This document shows, piece after piece, positions 1,303-9,523 of a stretch of DNA of 64,000 bases. The position numbers and the translations under genes are program-made. The stretch's first letter is position 1. Each line of letters starts with the position of its first letter. The notes beneath the pieces are model-generated. The model did not search any database, was not told where the DNA came from, and saw only the letters and a list, made by a program, of their open reading frames with translations. The stretch comes from an uncultured Bacteroidia bacterium (GTDB taxonomy: Bacteria; Bacteroidota; Bacteroidia; Bacteroidales; Prolixibacteraceae), in assembly GCA_903904515.1 (NCBI GenBank), contig CAIVCR010000013.1:1-64000 (forward strand), written 5' to 3'.

Positions 1303-1644
1303 TTATCCTTCCCCCTCAAACACTTTTTGAAAGTATCGGATCGCACAATCCTGAAGAGTTTTGAGTTTGCGTTCTTCGGTAATTGCCGGTGCGAGAGCAT
1401 TCTGATGAAAGAGTGGCCAACCATCCGCATCGGTTCCGCTGCGTGTTACCAATCCCATCTCCTGATAGAGCGTGCAACTCCCAAGATTTATCAGGTTGAT
1501 TTTTTCCTCTTTCGTGAAGGGCTGAAACGATAAACCCCGCTCGCGTATCCCCACCAAAAAGAGAACCCCGTTTAAATCGACTTCAATACCAAAAAGGTCA
1601 TTGAGGGTTTTACATAAATCATTCCAATTTTCGGGCGCTTTCAT
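1303..1644 (-). CDS. Conserved hypothetical protein (113 aa)
   Basis: A soluble protein of 113 residues beginning MKAPENWNDLCKTLNDLFG, with a central VLFLVGIRERG segment, a lysine-rich FTKEEKINLINLG helix and LVTRSGTDADGWPLFHQN near the middle. From memory this resembles a small uncharacterised Bacteroidota family with a D-x-D-G-W-P motif, but I cannot name a function. It has no signal peptide or membrane segment. A TACTTTTG element on the same strand at 1659-1666, a good match to the Bacteroidota -7 box, sits about 15 bases upstream of the ATG and supports this being a real, separately transcribed gene. Confidence 0.7.
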   Translation of the reverse strand: MKAPENWNDLCKTLNDLFGIEVDLNGVLFLVGIRERGLSFQPFTKEEKINLINLGSCTLYQEMGLVTRSGTDADGWPLFHQNALAPAITEERKLKTLQDCAIRYFQKVFEGEG

Positions 1645-1746: not shown

Positions 1747-3426
1747 ATGAAAAATGCAAGCCAAGGATTTAGCCTCCTGATCGCATCAGGATTGGTTTTA
1801 GTTCTAAATTTTAGTTATGCCCAAAAAGCCAGCTATCCCATTGATAAAAAGGTTGTCACAACCGTTGAACGAATGGTTAATCCCGTTCCGGTACCTCTAA
1901 CAGCGGCAAAGATTTTCCCGTACGAGATTTCCAAATATTCGCAAAATGGCTATGGCAAATGGGAATTTGGCAAAGGGCTCCCTTATGAGAAAAGATTGGA
2001 CCTGATGCCTGACTCGTATGCAGCTATTTCAGTACGAAATACCGCAAAACTGCTGAATTTTTTCGCGATGACCGATATCCATATCACCGATAAAGAATCC
2101 CCTGCACAGGCCATTTATTTTGGTTTTAAAGGGGGGATAATTTCGGCCTATTCAGGAATTATGCTTTATACAACGCATGTTCTGGATGCTGCTGTCCAAA
2201 CCGTAAATGCTCTTCACAAAACCAACCCGATTGATTTTGGTATCTCATTGGGTGATGATGCCAACAATTCGCAATATAACGAGACCAGATGGTTTATCGA
2301 CATTCTTGACGGGAAGCTTATAAACCCCGATTCGGGTCTTAAAGATGATCCTATTCCCGGAACTCACAATGATTACCAGGATGAGTTCCAGGCAGCTGGG
2401 CTTGATAAGTCGATTCCCTGGTACCAGGCAGTTGGTAATCACGATCATAACTGGATGGGTTGTTTTCCGAAAGACGATTATATTCAAAAGAGCTATATCG
2501 GCGATAGTATTATTAAAATGGGAAAAAACATTTTCGCTCCCGGGGGTACTACCGAACGGACACTTTATATGGGTGTGATGGATGGTAGAACAATCTATGG
2601 TGATATTATTGGCATAGGGCCGGTAAGTACCACAAAGCCGGTGATTATAGCAGCCGATCCAAACCGCCGTTCTCTTTCATCGATCGGGTGGTCAAACGAA
2701 TTTTTTAATACAACCTCAAATCCTGTAGGACATGGGTTTGATAAAGCCGACGCTGCCAGGGGATTTGCCTGCTATGCTTTCGAACCAAAGCCGGATGTTC
2801 CGCTTAAGGTTATAGTTCTTGATGATACGCAGAAAGACGGTGATCCAAGCAAAGATGTTCACGGGCATAGTTTTCTTGACCAGGAACGTTACAACTGGCT
2901 GGTAAAAGAACTGGACAAAGGACAGGCTGAGGGGAAGCTGATGGTTATTGCTGCTCATATCCCTATAGGGTTAAAATCGGTTGACCCTGAACTGGGTTGG
3001 GATCCTAATGCTCCATTATCTGAGGCGACTTTGGTTGCCAAACTTCATACCTATCCAAATCTTATCCTCTGGGTTGCTGGTCACCGCCATCTTAATACGG
3101 TCACTGCCTTAAAATCGCCCGATACCACTCATCCTGAACTGGGGTTCTGGGAGGTTGAAACCCCTTCACTTAGAGAGTTCCCTCAGCAGTTTCGTACTTT
3201 CAACATTGTCCGCAACAGTGACAATACTATTTCGATTTTTGCAACCGATATTGATCCTGCCGTTCAGGAAGGGTCGTTTGCTGCCGCATCGTGTTCCTAC
3301 GCCATCGCTGCCTATGAGATTTTTAAAATGGAACCGATCGGTTCATACAATGCGGAACTTGTAAAACAACTTACTCCGGAGATGCAGCTTAAGATCAGGA
3401 ACTATGGAATACCTGTAAACAAGTAA
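1747..3426 (+). CDS. Exported metallophosphoesterase (RPA4764-like), copy 1
   Basis: A 559-residue calcineurin-type phosphoesterase with long inserts between the metal motifs. The five motifs are present in order: DIH in MTDIHITD, GDD in ISLGDDANNS, GNHD in AVGNHDHNW, the histidine of IAAHIPIG, and GHRH in WVAGHRHLN. This fits the TIGR03768 (RPA4764) group. Residues 1-25 (ending FSYAQ) look like a Sec signal peptide cut after Ala, so the enzyme should be periplasmic or secreted. Copy 2 follows 20 bases later on the same strand, and the two are similar throughout. The substrate is unknown. The HAD phosphatases downstream suggest a role in phosphate release from an organic phosphoester, which is inference. 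Confidence 0.85.
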   Translation: MKNASQGFSLLIASGLVLVLNFSYAQKASYPIDKKVVTTVERMVNPVPVPLTAAKIFPYEISKYSQNGYGKWEFGKGLPYEKRLDLMPDSYAAISVRNTAKLLNFFAMTDIHITDKESPAQAIYFGFKGGIISAYSGIMLYTTHVLDAAVQTVNALHKTNPIDFGISLGDDANNSQYNETRWFIDILDGKLINPDSGLKDDPIPGTHNDYQDEFQAAGLDKSIPWYQAVGNHDHNWMGCFPKDDYIQKSYIGDSIIKMGKNIFAPGGTTERTLYMGVMDGRTIYGDIIGIGPVSTTKPVIIAADPNRRSLSSIGWSNEFFNTTSNPVGHGFDKADAARGFACYAFEPKPDVPLKVIVLDDTQKDGDPSKDVHGHSFLDQERYNWLVKELDKGQAEGKLMVIAAHIPIGLKSVDPELGWDPNAPLSEATLVAKLHTYPNLILWVAGHRHLNTVTALKSPDTTHPELGFWEVETPSLREFPQQFRTFNIVRNSDNTISIFATDIDPAVQEGSFAAASCSYAIAAYEIFKMEPIGSYNAELVKQLTPEMQLKIRNYGIPVNK

Positions 3427-3446
3427 TAGTTATTTGGAAACAGTAG

Positions 3447-5177
3447 ATGTTATTAAGAAATTATATTAAAAGGCAGGGCATTCTAACAGGCTTCCTGGTT
3501 TGTGTAGCAACTTCGTTCAGTCTCATAAGTGGATGCAGGAAAGATGTTAGTTCTTTAGATCCTCCAGGAACCAGGGTCTTTACAACACTTGACAGGACCA
3601 TTATTCCTGCAAATGTGGCATCACAACCTGTACTATATCCCTACGAAATTTCCAAATTTTCCACTTTCACGGGTTATGGAATCTGGAGTTATGGTCCTGG
3701 GCTTGATTGTCAGAAAAGGCTGGATCTTATGTCTACGGGATATACAGGTGCCTCAGTTACAAAAACTGCCAGACTATTGAACTTTTTTGCGATAAGTGAT
3801 GTACATATTACCGATGAGGAATCACCAGCGTCTGCATTGTATTTTGGGTACAAAGGGGGTTTTATTGGAGGATATTCACCGGTTCTGTTATATTCTACGC
3901 AGGTTTTTAACGCTGCAATTCAGACCATCAATATTCTTCACCATGAAAATTCTTTTGATTTCGGGATCTCTCTGGGTGATGCCTGCAACAACACGCAGTA
4001 TAACGAACTCCGATGGTATATCGATATTCTTGACGGTAAGCGGATAATTCCGGATTCAGGCATAAAGGATGATCCGATACCTGGTCCCGGGAATGATTAC
4101 CAGGATGAATTCCAGGCGGAAGGGCTTGATAAGACCATTTCCTGGTACCAGACGCAGGGCAACCATGATCAATTCTGGACAGGTATACTTCCCTCTACTG
4201 AGGTGGTCAGAAATAGTTACACTCAGGATGAAATCCTCAATATTGGCAATATTTTTGCAAACCCCAACGATCCTATCCCTTTCGACAGCAGGGGAATCTA
4301 TATGGGTTCCATCGATGGCACTACACCTATGGGTGAAATAATGGGTATCGGAGCTATGGGTAACTTTCCAACACCACCCAAAGTCCGAGCTGCTGATCCT
4401 GATCGTCGTTCATTATTTAAAGAAGAGTGGATAAACGAATTTTTCAACACATCTTCAAATCCAGTTGGACATGGGTTCAGCAAGGCCTGCGCAACCGCTG
4501 GATTTGCCTGTTATTCATTTGAACCGAAGGCTGACATACCAATCAAAGTAATCGTTTTGGATGATACTCAAAACAATGACGATCCTCATCTTAGCTTTTA
4601 TGCGCATAGCTCCATAGATATGGCCCGTTATGCCTGGCTGGTGAACGAATTAGAGACGGGTCAGTCGGAAGGTAAGCTGATGATTATTTCGTCACATATC
4701 CCGATTGGAGTTTTACCTCCGGATAATGGCATGGGTTGGAGCGCCAGCGCTGCCGTTACGGAAGGCGATTTTATTGCAAAACTTCACACCTTCCCAAATC
4801 TCATTTTATGGATCGCAGGTCATCGGCATGTAAATCAGGTTACACCATTCCCATCGGCTGACCCGGCCCATCCTGAAAACGGTTTCTGGGAAGTAGAAAG
4901 TAAATCACTACGAGATTTTCCTCAGCAATTTAGACTTTTTGAAATTGCGCGTAACAGCGATAATACCGTTTCAATAATCACTACCAACGTTGATCCGATA
5001 ATGAAAGCGGGTTCTTTGGCCGCGAAATCGCGTTATTATGCCGTTGCGGCTCAACAGATATTCAATGTTCTGAAGCCTTATGCCCCCTCTTTTTCGTACA
5101 ATGGCGAGCTCGTTAAACAACTGACAACCGCGATGCAGGTTAAAATTCAAAACTGCGGGACACAGTTTAGCAATTAA
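3447..5177 (+). CDS. Metallophosphoesterase lipoprotein (RPA4764-like), copy 2
   Basis: A paralogue of the preceding gene (576 aa) with the same motif order: [33 protein letters not shown] and WIAGHRHVN. All metal-binding positions are kept, so it should be active. The N-terminus differs: the hydrophobic stretch ends in the lipobox LISGC (Cys30) followed by RKD, which predicts a lipoprotein anchored in the outer or inner membrane, while copy 1 has an ordinary cleaved signal. The pair therefore arose by tandem duplication with a change of cellular location. The C-terminus ([15 protein letters not shown]) is the segment that recurs as an orphan scrap at 6570-6695. Confidence 0.85.
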
Positions 5178-5256
5178 AAGGTTCTCATACAGGCTAATAC
5201 AATTGAAAATTATGAAAAAATATTTTCTCGATTCTAAATATTATAATCATTAAGAA

Positions 5257-6534
5257 ATGGCAAAGAAAATTAAATTCAGCCCACTCCTGATAATCGGCTT
5301 GGTAACTATCCTGACAGTTAGTTGCAAAAAGGAAGATAGTATATCGGTTAACTCACTGAATCTGTTGAACTGGTCGGAGAAGAACTATTCTGTCTTGAAT
5401 CAGTTAATAGAGGACTATGGAACAGGCGGGAAATACTACGATGAAAAAAAGGCCCCTTATGCCGTATTTAATTGGGACCAAACCTGTGCTCATTTCGATG
5501 TTGAGGAGGCGGTAATGCGTTATCAACTTGTTAATATTCTGTTTAAAATGACCAAGGATCAGTTCCGAAACGACCTGCTCAAAGCGACCATCAACGGCGT
5601 AACAAAATTATCCGAGGCATATAAAAGTGTGAATCTGACAGATATTAATACAGACCTTATAAATGATTATAATTTCCTGTATGATAATTTTATAGGATCG
5701 GGAAGCACCATGACGCTTAATGAAATTCAGGCAACATCGCAGTATAAGGACTTTATTGCAAAAATCCCTTTTTTGTACAATGGCTATTGCGAGACCACTG
5801 GAATCGGCGCTGAATATGGGTATCCATGGCAGCACAGTTTGTTGGCAGGGCATACCATTGTGGAAGTAAACCTTCTTGCTAAAGAGGCTATTGATTATGA
5901 GCTGGGTAACAAATTGAGCAAACAAACCTGGCAATCACCTGCAGGTTTTCAGACAAGCACTGGTATTATTAGTTATTCCTACATAACGGGTTTGCGGGTT
6001 TTCCCTGAAATTCAGAACCTGATATCAAACTTCAAAAGTCATGGAATTGAAGTTTTTATTGTTTCGGCAAGTTATAAGCCTGTCGTAGAGGTGTTTTCAG
6101 GCATTGGGAATTATGGTTACAATGTCCCCGCTGATCATGTGATTGCCATGGAGTTGGCAACTTCCGGAGATGGTAAGATTCTGCCACAGTACAAAGCGGG
6201 ATGGATTATAACGCAAAGGCAGGGTAAAGTAGATGCGATTAACAGGGTCATAAAACAGGAGCTGGGAAAAAATTGGGATCCACTCTTCTCTGCCGGTGAC
6301 AGTGATGGGGATTATGAGATGTTAACAATGTTTCCGGATATGAAGTTGACACTGATCTGGAACAGGGTGAAAGGGGGAGATATCGGAAAACTTTGCAAAC
6401 AGGCTGTTGATGAATCGAATTTTGCCATGCCACGATATATCCTTCAGGGTCGAAATGAGAATACCGGTCTTGTAATCCCTTGTTCCGAATCGATCCTTTT
6501 GGGGTCGACTGTGCTGCAATTATTGGCCCAATGA
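5257..6534 (+). CDS. HAD-superfamily phosphatase-like lipoprotein, nucleophile Asp replaced by Asn
   Basis: A 425-residue protein with a lipobox (LTVSC, Cys23 followed by KKED), so a membrane-anchored lipoprotein. The rest resembles HAD phosphatases of the PF12710 / phosphorylcholine-phosphatase type: motif I near residues 72-76 (NWDQT), motif II serine in VFIVSAS, a lysine in QGKVDAI, and motif IV GDSDGD around residue 347. In motif I the first residue, normally the phosphorylated Asp nucleophile, is Asn (codon aat at about 5470). The second Asp is kept. The downstream paralogue keeps Asp here. Copy 1 may thus be a pseudo-enzyme or may depend on deamidation; this is inference. It lies 79 bases after the metallophosphoesterase pair. 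Confidence 0.8.
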   Translation: MAKKIKFSPLLIIGLVTILTVSCKKEDSISVNSLNLLNWSEKNYSVLNQLIEDYGTGGKYYDEKKAPYAVFNWDQTCAHFDVEEAVMRYQLVNILFKMTKDQFRNDLLKATINGVTKLSEAYKSVNLTDINTDLINDYNFLYDNFIGSGSTMTLNEIQATSQYKDFIAKIPFLYNGYCETTGIGAEYGYPWQHSLLAGHTIVEVNLLAKEAIDYELGNKLSKQTWQSPAGFQTSTGIISYSYITGLRVFPEIQNLISNFKSHGIEVFIVSASYKPVVEVFSGIGNYGYNVPADHVIAMELATSGDGKILPQYKAGWIITQRQGKVDAINRVIKQELGKNWDPLFSAGDSDGDYEMLTMFPDMKLTLIWNRVKGGDIGKLCKQAVDESNFAMPRYILQGRNENTGLVIPCSESILLGSTVLQLLAQ

Positions 6535-6569
6535 TGCGGCTGTACACAAGGTTAAAAAACAGAAACTGA

Positions 6570-6695
6570 AATACCACAATACATAATGTAAAAGATGCCC
6601 CATCCTTTTCGTACAATGCTGAACTTGTAAAACAGCTGACTCCGGAAATGCAGAAAAGCTTTACTTTGCTGCGAAATATCTTTAGTACTAAGTAA
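6570..6695 (+). pseudogene. C-terminal remnant of a third metallophosphoesterase gene
   Basis: Between the two HAD genes, one frame opens after TGA 6567-6569 and reads to TAA 6693-6695. It encodes APSFSYNAELVKQLTPEMQ, nearly identical to the last 30 residues of the upstream metallophosphoesterases: copy 2 has [19 protein letters not shown] and copy 1 has SYNAELVKQLTPEMQ. No start codon or metal motifs remain. The stop overlaps the ATG of the next gene (TAATG). I read it as what remains of a deleted third copy, meaning the metallophosphoesterase-HAD unit was once duplicated as a block. Confidence 0.8.
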
Positions 6696-7918
6696 TGGCG
6701 AAAATTTTACCGAATATGAGGGATCGCGAATCTATCCATCCGTTGGATAAATTGAATTGGTCTGAAAGAAACTATTCTGTCTTGACCCAGCTGATCTGTG
6801 ATTATGGGATTGGTGGAAAATATTACGATCAATCCAAACCTCCCTTTGCCGTTTTGGATTGGGATCAGACGTGTGCCCATTTCGATGTGGAAGAGGCAGT
6901 TATGCATTATCAGTTGTTCAATCTTCGGTTTAAACTCTCAAAGGAACAATTCAGAACTATTTTAAAGGATGATATTAACGGAGTAACCCAATTATCGGCC
7001 GATTATCAGCATGTAATTCTTGCAGCGATTAACAGTGATCTTATTGAGGATTACGATTTTCTGCATGATAATTTTTCAGGTCTAAGCGGGACAATGAGCC
7101 TTGCTGAAATCATTTTGACACCTCAATATGCCGATTTTATTGCCAAGATCCCTTTTCTGTACGCCGGATATTGTGCAACTCCCGGAATTACCGATTATTA
7201 TGGTTATCCCTGGATCACTTTTTTACTCGCAGGACATACGATTGCCGAGGTTCAAATACTGGCTAAGGAGGCTATAACATTAGAGCTCGGATACGAACTA
7301 GCGAAACAAACACTTTATTCTCCTGTAACTTCTAAAGTCAGAGTTAATGGGATTAGCGTGAGCTTTAATAAGGGATTACGCGTTCTTCCCGAAATGCAAA
7401 ACCTGATTCAAACTTTTAGTGGGTGCGGAATTGATGTATTTATTGTTTCTGCCAGTAATAAGCATGTCGTTGAGGTGTTTTCCGGATTGGAATGTTTCGG
7501 ATATAATATTCCCCCCGAAAATGTGATTGGTATGGAGCTTGAGACCTCTGATGATGGCAAACTTCTGCCTGAATATAAACATGATTGGGTTAAAACATTC
7601 AGGAAGGGGAAAGTTGAAGCAATAAACCGGGTGATAAAAGGGGAACTCGGCAAAAGCCGGGATCCTCTGTTCGCTGCCATCGACAGTGATGGCGATTATG
7701 AAATGGCAACTGATTTCCCGGATATGAAGCTTGTATTGATCTGGAACAGGATAAAAGGAGGAGATACCGGGAGACTTTGCAAACAGGCAGTAAGCGAATT
7801 CAACACCCAGACACCCAGGTATATTCTGCAGGGTCGTAATGAGAATACCGGGCTGGCAATCCCTTGTTCCGAATCGATCCTTTTGGGGAGTAGAGAGTTG
7901 CAACTACTAAATGGTTAG
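6695..7918 (+). CDS. HAD-superfamily phosphatase, second copy without signal peptide
   Basis: A 407-residue paralogue of the HAD lipoprotein upstream, similar from residue 21 (NWSERNYSVL) to the end (NENTGLAIPCSESILLGS). Motif I is intact (DWDQT, Asp55 and Asp57), the motif II serine is in VFIVSAS, and motif IV is IDSDGD, where the usual glycine before Asp is Ile329. The 20-odd residues replacing the lipoprotein signal (MAKILPNMRDRESIHPLDK) are not hydrophobic, so the protein is predicted to stay in the cytoplasm unless the signal was lost by mutation. The ATG overlaps the stop of the phosphoesterase remnant (TAATG), and an in-frame stop lies just upstream at 6689, so no longer start is possible. 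Confidence 0.8.
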   Translation: MAKILPNMRDRESIHPLDKLNWSERNYSVLTQLICDYGIGGKYYDQSKPPFAVLDWDQTCAHFDVEEAVMHYQLFNLRFKLSKEQFRTILKDDINGVTQLSADYQHVILAAINSDLIEDYDFLHDNFSGLSGTMSLAEIILTPQYADFIAKIPFLYAGYCATPGITDYYGYPWITFLLAGHTIAEVQILAKEAITLELGYELAKQTLYSPVTSKVRVNGISVSFNKGLRVLPEMQNLIQTFSGCGIDVFIVSASNKHVVEVFSGLECFGYNIPPENVIGMELETSDDGKLLPEYKHDWVKTFRKGKVEAINRVIKGELGKSRDPLFAAIDSDGDYEMATDFPDMKLVLIWNRIKGGDTGRLCKQAVSEFNTQTPRYILQGRNENTGLAIPCSESILLGSRELQLLNG

Positions 7919-8083: not shown

Positions 8084-9523
8084 ATGAAGAACTTACGGAT
8101 TGTTGATATTTTAAAATCGGGGCAGGTGGGCACCGAGATAACAGTAAAAGGGTGGGTACGTACCCGCCGGGGGAGTAAAAATGTCAGTTTTATTGCCTTG
8201 AATGATGGCTCAACGATTCATAATTTGCAGGTTGTGGCTGAGGTGGAGAGCTTTGGTGAGGAGATTTTGAAACTAATCAACACCGGTGCTGCGATAGGTG
8301 TTACAGGAAAACTGGTTGAATCGAGTGGCTCGGGTCAGTCGGTTGAATTGCAGGCTTCTGCCCTGGAGGTGATAGGGGTTGCAGATCCTGAAAAATACCC
8401 TATTCAGCCCAAGCGTCACTCGCTTGAATTTCTGCGTGAAATGGCGCATCTGCGTCCGCGCACTGCCACTTTCAGCGCGATTTTCCGGATGCGTCATGCA
8501 ATGATATTTGCAATCCACAGCTTTTTCAACGAAAGAGGCTTTTATAATGTCCACACCCCTATAATTACGAGTTCAGATGCTGAAGGAGCGGGAGAGATGT
8601 TCCGCGTATCAACACTTCCGGCCAAAGATGCCCCATTGGATGAAGCGGGGAATATCGATTATTCCCAGGATTTCTTTGGTAAAGCTGCCAATCTGACTGT
8701 TTCTGGTCAGCTCGAAGGGGAACTTTTTGCTATGGCTTTATCCCGAATCTATACTTTTGGTCCGACATTTAGGGCTGAGAATTCCAATACTTCCCGACAC
8801 CTTGCCGAGTTCTGGATGATTGAACCCGAAGTTGCCTTCTTCGATCTGAACGACAACATGGATCTGGCAGAAGAGTTTCTTAAATACCTGATTCGGTATG
8901 CTCTCGATCATTGCATGGACGACCTTGTTTTCCTGAGTGGCAGACTGGCTGAAGAGGAGAAAAATAAACCAGCCGATCAGCGCTCAATGGAGTTGATCGA
9001 GAAACTTAAATTTGTTGCTGACAACGATTTTATCCGGCTTACCTATACCCAAGCGATTGAAATTCTTAAAAACTCCAAGCAGAATAAAAAGGGAAAATTC
9101 CAGTATCCGATAACGGGCTACGGGACTGATCTTCAAAGCGAACACGAGCGGTTCCTCGTTGAGGTGGAGTTTAAGAAACCGGTGATCCTTACTAATTATC
9201 CAAAGGAGATCAAGGCTTTCTATATGCGGATGGATGACAATGGTAAAACTGTTTCAGCGATGGATGTGTTATTCCCGCAAATCGGTGAAATTATTGGGGG
9301 TTCACAGCGTGAAGAGAGGCTTGACTTTCTGGAGCGCCGTATGGATGAAATGAACATTCCGAAAGAGGATATGGAATGGTATCTTGATACCCGCAGATTC
9401 GGAGGTTGTCCGCATGCCGGATTTGGTCTTGGGTTTGAAAGACTTCTCCTTTTTGTTACAGGAATGACTAATATTCGCGATGTTATCCCTTTTGCCCGTA
9501 CCCCTAAAAATTGCGAGTTTTAA
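8084..9523 (+). CDS. asnS: Asparaginyl-tRNA synthetase
   Basis: A class IIb aminoacyl-tRNA synthetase of 479 residues that charges tRNA-Asn with asparagine in the cytoplasm. The first 110 residues form the anticodon-binding OB fold ([21 protein letters not shown]). The catalytic core shows motif 1 around residue 140-160 ([20 protein letters not shown]), motif 2 near 226-250 ([16 protein letters not shown]) and motif 3 near 447 ([12 protein letters not shown]). [14 protein letters not shown] and the absence of a GAD insertion distinguish AsnRS from AspRS. Length is close to the usual 430-480. The gene stands alone with its own promoter and a hairpin terminator. Confidence 0.97.

Follow-up and report, generated by a model that had tools for sequence, protein, structure and literature searches.

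The DNA analysed here, referred to as the window, is a stretch of 64,000 nucleotides from an uncultured Bacteroidia bacterium of the Prolixibacteraceae (assembly GCA_903904515.1, contig CAIVCR010000013.1), and at positions 1747 to 7918 its open reading frame (ORF) list gives an array of four genes, all on the plus strand: two metallophosphoesterase genes (M1 and M2) followed by two HAD-type genes (H1 and H2). This array is very probably a composite at a variable insertion spot between the flanking genes C19 and asnS, and not a duplicated module. The window would thus unite two states of the spot that occur apart in other genomes of the genus, one holding the M1-M2 pair and the other H2, with H1 lying between them. 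The evidence comprises the families of the genes, the empty and half-filled sites of relatives, the separate ancestries of the four genes, a breakpoint at 6653/6654, and the loss of the catalytic nucleophile from H1. The source is a 3.57-Mb metagenome-assembled genome (G000; 130 contigs, 82.93% complete), in which the window lies on contig C13. The features of the site are as follows.

1303 to 1644, minus strand: C19, a 113-amino-acid protein, left flank, divergent from the array
1747 to 3426, plus strand: M1, TIGR03768 metallophosphoesterase with a signal-like N-terminus and intact active-site residues
3447 to 5177, plus strand: M2, TIGR03768 metallophosphoesterase with a lipoprotein-like N-terminus (by eye) and intact active-site residues
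5218 to 5264, plus strand: leader and start of H1, similar to the leaders of H2-type genes
5257 to 6534, plus strand: H1, HAD-IB-like protein with a lipoprotein-like N-terminus (by eye), Asn72 replacing the nucleophile Asp
6595 to 6653 (start possibly near 6582), plus strand: remnant of the tail of a TIGR03768 gene, cut at both ends
6654 to 6694, plus strand: leader of H2, homologous to the leader in locus L026, which has no M1, M2 or H1 at the site
6695 to 7918, plus strand: H2, HAD-IB-like phosphatase with the nucleophile Asp kept and no signal peptide seen
8084 to 9523, plus strand: right flank, putatively asnS (asparaginyl-tRNA synthetase), named from its sequence

C19, which matched no Pfam or NCBIfam family at E 0.001, is present in 16 of 18 same-genus genomes and asnS in 14 (E 1e-150, 90-96% identical), and all 14 genomes with asnS carry both genes on one contig. 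Nine of these 14 spanning genomes have an empty site (G078, G082, G083, G084, G088, G089, G090, G092 and G093), with a C19-asnS gap of 158-339 bases (the figure for G093 containing a few asnS codons). Two contain an H2-type HAD gene alone (G094 and G086), one a DUF3089 protein together with H2 (G091), one M1 and M2 alone (G087), and one, the genome of the window, M1, M2, H1, the remnant and H2. The sequence-only reading had proposed the duplication of a phosphoesterase-HAD unit; that history does not accommodate relatives in which M1 and M2 occur without an HAD gene, or H2 without M1 and M2, at the same site. The asnS tree places the window in a clade of ten genomes (support 98/99); the four genomes that fall outside it are all empty, and the clade itself, the internal order of which is largely unresolved, comprises five empty and five filled sites. 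Two genomes have C19 without an asnS match. G080 carries, after C19, response-regulator-like genes (judged by eye), a different metallophosphoesterase and M2; its contig terminates in asnS upstream sequence. In G085, C19 is followed by other genes: an unrelated one and then a protein that we take to resemble Rpn-type PD-(D/E)XK nucleases (L096, 3557-6280), and no asnS turned up in the stretch examined. Variable insertion spots, or integration hotspots, are sites in bacterial chromosomes with conserved flanks, and the C19-asnS site is like them in its conserved flanks and in cargo that differs or is absent from genome to genome.

The four genes differ in descent. When 19 phosphoesterases are placed in a tree, M1 falls with M1 of G087 and a gene of L010 (100/99), while M2 groups with the genes of G080 and G087 from the same site (96/93) and next with genes of L039 and L009 (100/99). 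Forcing M1 and M2 to be sisters costs 351 log-likelihood units (approximately unbiased test, p-AU 2e-66). In a tree of 33 HAD proteins (without an outgroup, with the partial L036 excluded and L017 trimmed to its last 395 residues), H2 groups with L037, L026 and L035 (100/99) and H1 with L009, L010, L011 and L012 (99/95), and forcing H1 and H2 together costs 139 log-likelihood units (p-AU 3e-95). Each gene has its own orthologues, and the duplication of a phosphoesterase-HAD unit suggested by the sequence-only reading, for which co-duplication in both families was the proposed check, is rejected by the trees. M1 and M2 are adjacent again in G087, at the same site, and in L115, elsewhere.

The stretch between the HAD genes contains the tail of a further phosphoesterase gene. 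Positions 6595-6653 are identical to M2 at 46 of 59 bases, compared with 32 for the best of 300 random 59-mers from the window, and to M2 of G080 at 50 of 59; positions 6608-6653 match M1 at 41 of 46. At the protein level, similarity to another TIGR03768 gene extends the start to about 6582. From 6654 the similarity turns to the H2 leader of L026 (the locus from G094, same genus), aligned over 6654-6700, giving a sharp breakpoint at 6653/6654; because of this change, the remnant is cut at both ends. A dead third phosphoesterase copy between the HAD genes had been described from the sequence, and the phosphoesterase tail is real, but it accounts for only about 20-26 codons, ending at 6653. From stop to stop, the open stretch spans 41 codons, the last 13 of which are H2 leader. 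A remnant made up of 40 phosphoesterase codons is ruled out, since those last 13 codons align with the L026 leader. As a separate observation, the 3' ends of the HAD genes share 31 identical bases (6474-6504 in H1, 7858-7888 in H2) against a background of roughly 70%, and the likeness of H2 to L037 falls in the last third of the gene. Gene conversion between the two 3' ends is possible, the window-wise identities not being decisive.

Both phosphoesterases score well above the TIGR03768 cut-off of 387.4 bits (M1 648.7, M2 635.8), with most of the model covered. Eight residues (D110, H112, D170, N231, H232, H404, H446 and H448), which we take to be the calcineurin-type metal ligands, are invariant among 18 aligned TIGR03768 sequences including M1 and M2. 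In M2 the GNHD motif is followed by Gln (H234Q, M1 numbering), a position occupied by His in the other 17 sequences of the alignment. H1 and H2 are 66% identical and HAD-IB-like: both fall below the TIGR01488 cut-off of 45 bits (36.7 and 27.4), and for PF12710 (cut-off 27) H1 scores above at 31.1 and H2 slightly below at 25.6. The basic layout of two paralogous phosphoesterases followed by two paralogous HAD proteins, as first read from the sequence, is thus borne out. Contig C81 of the same genome carries a third intact TIGR03768 gene with no HAD of the H1/H2 family near it, and no other HAD of that family was found in the source genome beyond H1 and H2.

H1 has lost the nucleophile of its fold. 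Motif I reads NWDQT in H1 and DWDQT in H2, and the nucleophile position is Asp in all 32 HAD relatives, none having Asn, and also in three more distant proteins; the peptide patterns from H1 and H2 with which the relatives were fetched do not cover this residue. D72N, which needs one base change, is the sole private departure of H1 from otherwise uniform columns in 30 aligned sequences, and H1 is therefore not generally decayed. The leader of H1 aligns with the H2 leader of L037 (from G091) with a score of 44, whereas 500 base shuffles reached at most 34; the score with L026, 33, is not above that maximum, and scores with the leaders of L009, L010 and L011, from H1's own clade, and of L039 are 18-21. 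Because the H1 leader is H2-like and unlike those of its clade, these comparisons suggest that a copy of the H2 leader came to precede H1. By eye, the absence of a visible signal peptide in H2 extends to L026, L035 and L037.

The two families are not constantly paired. A TIGR03768 gene lies within about 10 kb of three of 32 HAD loci (L009, L010 and L039; several of the 32 are short because of contig ends), and in none of the 32 are the two direct neighbours, so that the recurrent adjacency expected by the sequence-only reading is not seen. At E 1e-60, HAD genes are present in 10 and TIGR03768 genes in 5 of 140 genomes of the family, and in 3 and 8, respectively, of 395 genomes of the phylum; of the 12 TIGR03768-bearing genomes across the two samples, three have the HAD, and the genes are neighbours only in the window. 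In G091 and G094 they lie on separate contigs. At the level of whole genomes the families do co-occur: TIGR03768 genes are present anywhere in 11 of 32 HAD genomes (5/7 plus 6/25) versus 8 of 395 phylum genomes (Fisher 3.5e-9), and within the family in 3 of 10 HAD genomes versus 2 of 130 others (p 0.0025), while the comparison within the genus (3 of 5 versus 2 of 13, p 0.10) is not significant. These tests are only indicative, because they ignore relatedness, the family and phylum samples include the window's own genome, and the 32 HAD genomes, gathered by H1/H2 peptide patterns, partly overlap the family sample.

TIGR03768 and H1-type genes recur with a set of companions: a PF02666 lipoprotein, a 244-amino-acid lipoprotein for which no family was matched, an NCS2 uracil-type permease, another PF00149 lipoprotein, a second HAD type and DUF3089 proteins. 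Their set and order differ among the clusters (L009, L010, L039, L115, L116, L117, L073 and L037). The nearest PDB matches of the PF02666 lipoprotein are L-tryptophan decarboxylase and phosphatidylserine decarboxylase. At two loci, L010 and L115, M1-type genes adjoin an HAD of another type, and a nucleobase permease, with a uracil permease assignment by NCBIfam that rests on the L039 copy, directly precedes the H1-type HAD in four loci (L009 at 8620, L010 at 8649, L039 at 5977 and L012 at 162). Two loci hold altered or multiple copies. In L010 (1322-3036) a TIGR03768 gene is broken into two ORFs of 381 and 188 amino acids beside an intact copy. The 20 kb of L116 (1-19999) contain two TIGR03768 genes, one of them end-cut, three more metallophosphoesterase-like genes, two of the same type, a PF02666-like gene and a partial DUF3089-like gene, some of these names being given by similarity only. 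Of the phosphatase cassette envisaged from the sequence, what stands is that the families share genomes above background and meet in reshuffled clusters of exported hydrolases; they do not form a fixed pair. It is rather doubtful that exported phospho-hydrolases (among them TIGR03768 enzymes, other PF00149 lipoproteins, and PchP-like and other HADs) and their companions constitute a reshuffling pool spreading in Bacteroidales, landing time and again at certain spots and serving an uncharacterised organic-phosphate route, in which H1 would be a non-catalytic, binding HAD.

Several observations weigh against a composite formed by insertion. The H1-remnant-H2 junctions are known from this single metagenome-assembled genome, and a local assembly error is therefore conceivable. 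Because relations within the ten-genome clade are largely unresolved, insertions are not distinguishable from the loss of parts of a larger ancestral array. The G+C content gives no hint that the genes were imported recently (M1 0.442, M2 0.436, H1 0.415, H2 0.418, window 0.416). The site is also unlike integration hotspots in that no integrase or transposase was recognised by eye near it, nor any mobile-element gene among the ORFs listed for the first 14 kb, which were scanned in part, and in that no tRNA was found in the window. Under differential loss, the ancestor of the clade would have had a long array (M1, M2, HADs and more phosphoesterases) of which the genomes kept different parts, the scar being a deletion in the window's line. 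The clustering of the M2 genes of G000, G080 and G087 and of the H2 genes of G000, G091, G094 and G086 fits this account, and the remnant proves that loss occurs. However, the spacers of the five empty clade members yielded no remnant, and those of G094 and G086 show no phosphoesterase remnant near H2, so that this explanation is somewhat unlikely. An assembly or base-call artefact in the metagenome bin is very unlikely: it would account for an arrangement seen in one incomplete, fragmented genome and for a D72N change of a single base, but the M1-M2 pair (G087) and the H2-asnS junction (G091 and G094) recur at the site in other assemblies, and the remnant is not identical to any of the intact copies set against it, as it would be in a chimera of the genome's own genes. 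In-place duplication of a phosphoesterase-HAD unit, with decay of a third phosphoesterase and enzymes acting in series, is highly improbable. The presence of two paralogues per family, the remnant separating the HADs, the genome-level co-occurrence and the proximity of M1-type genes to another HAD type would all suit it; against it stand the rejected sister pairs, the separate occurrence of M1-M2 and H2 in relatives, the gene order (M-M-H-m-H, with no repeated M-H unit) and, for action in series, an H1 that has no nucleophile.

As to what the enzymes might act upon, their structural relatives give indirect clues only. By sequence, the closest PDB relative of H1 is 4gxt (6.9e-53), an HAD-like protein of Anaerococcus prevotii with no assigned function. 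The predicted model of H2 (predicted local distance difference test, pLDDT, 88.2) has the HAD fold and is likewise nearest to 4gxt (template modelling, TM, scores 0.83/0.88; 31% identity), which has Asp where H1 has Asn. PchP of P. aeruginosa (4as2) is the second-best PDB match both by sequence (4.5e-7, or 4.8e-15 with a profile, the match being partial) and by fold of the H2 model (TM 0.51/0.62, root-mean-square deviation 7.9, 18% identity); it shares with H2 the HAD fold, the Asp-x-Asp-x-Thr motif I and a Glu-Glu pair after it. PchP is reported to hydrolyse phosphorylcholine and phosphorylethanolamine, and its E42 and E43 were chosen as substrate-contact candidates (PMC3170909). These residues fall on E83 and E84 (H1 numbering), although the motif I alignment is weak alone (9.9 bits, E 2.3); in an alignment of 33 sequences E84 never varies and E83 hardly does. 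For the phosphoesterases, the top PDB match of the TIGR03768 profile is SMPDL3A (acid sphingomyelinase-like phosphodiesterase 3a; 2.3e-5), in a stretch of 78 residues that holds the AHxP and GHxH histidines and to which the likeness is confined. M1 alone gave a single PDB match (E 0.48), and its AlphaFold model (pLDDT 38.3, from a 6-sequence alignment) was unusable and excluded from fold searches. That the HADs are PchP-like phosphocholine or phosphoethanolamine phosphatases fed by M1 and M2 for headgroup scavenging is unlikely. The PchP match, the Glu pair and the decarboxylase-like lipoprotein in relatives' clusters favour it, but the closest structure is one without known function, H1 unlike PchP has no nucleophile and H2 no visible signal peptide, the nearest PDB match of the decarboxylase-like protein is L-tryptophan decarboxylase, and the SMPDL3A likeness is short. 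Support for a route through phosphodiester headgroups is weak, although such a route is possible, and H1 would not serve in it as an active step; a phosphocholine-like headgroup as the substrate is only a lead.

TIGR03768 is a hypothetical equivalog of NCBIfam without a named reaction. A full-text literature search returned no paper naming it, a search on TIGR03768 or metallophosphoesterase returned, among the matches listed, no title on the family, and further searches returned none naming 4GXT and none combining at least 5 of 6 companion-cluster terms. The parts of the array are of known kinds, and their combination is without description in the searches made.

In the composite reading, the C19-asnS spacer would be a place where genes for exported hydrolases arrive and leave in this genus. 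One occupant would be the M1-M2 pair and another H2, a phosphatase in which no signal peptide is seen, and the source genome holds both; H1, an exported cousin of H2, lies between them behind its H2-like leader. The scar may record a recombination or deletion that joined the tail of a further phosphoesterase gene to the leader of H2. M1 and M2 probably cleave phosphodiesters outside the inner membrane, and H2 may take phosphate off a small phosphomonoester in the cytoplasm. H1 is presumably unable to carry out the normal HAD reaction and may be either a ligand binder or newly dead.

A tandem-duplication story that is plausible from one sequence thus proves wrong, and it is synteny within the genus that reveals a mosaic. 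The linked exported phosphoesterases and PchP-like HADs form an uncharacterised set worth assaying jointly, and H1 provides a natural case of Asp replaced by Asn at the nucleophile in an HAD that is otherwise well preserved.

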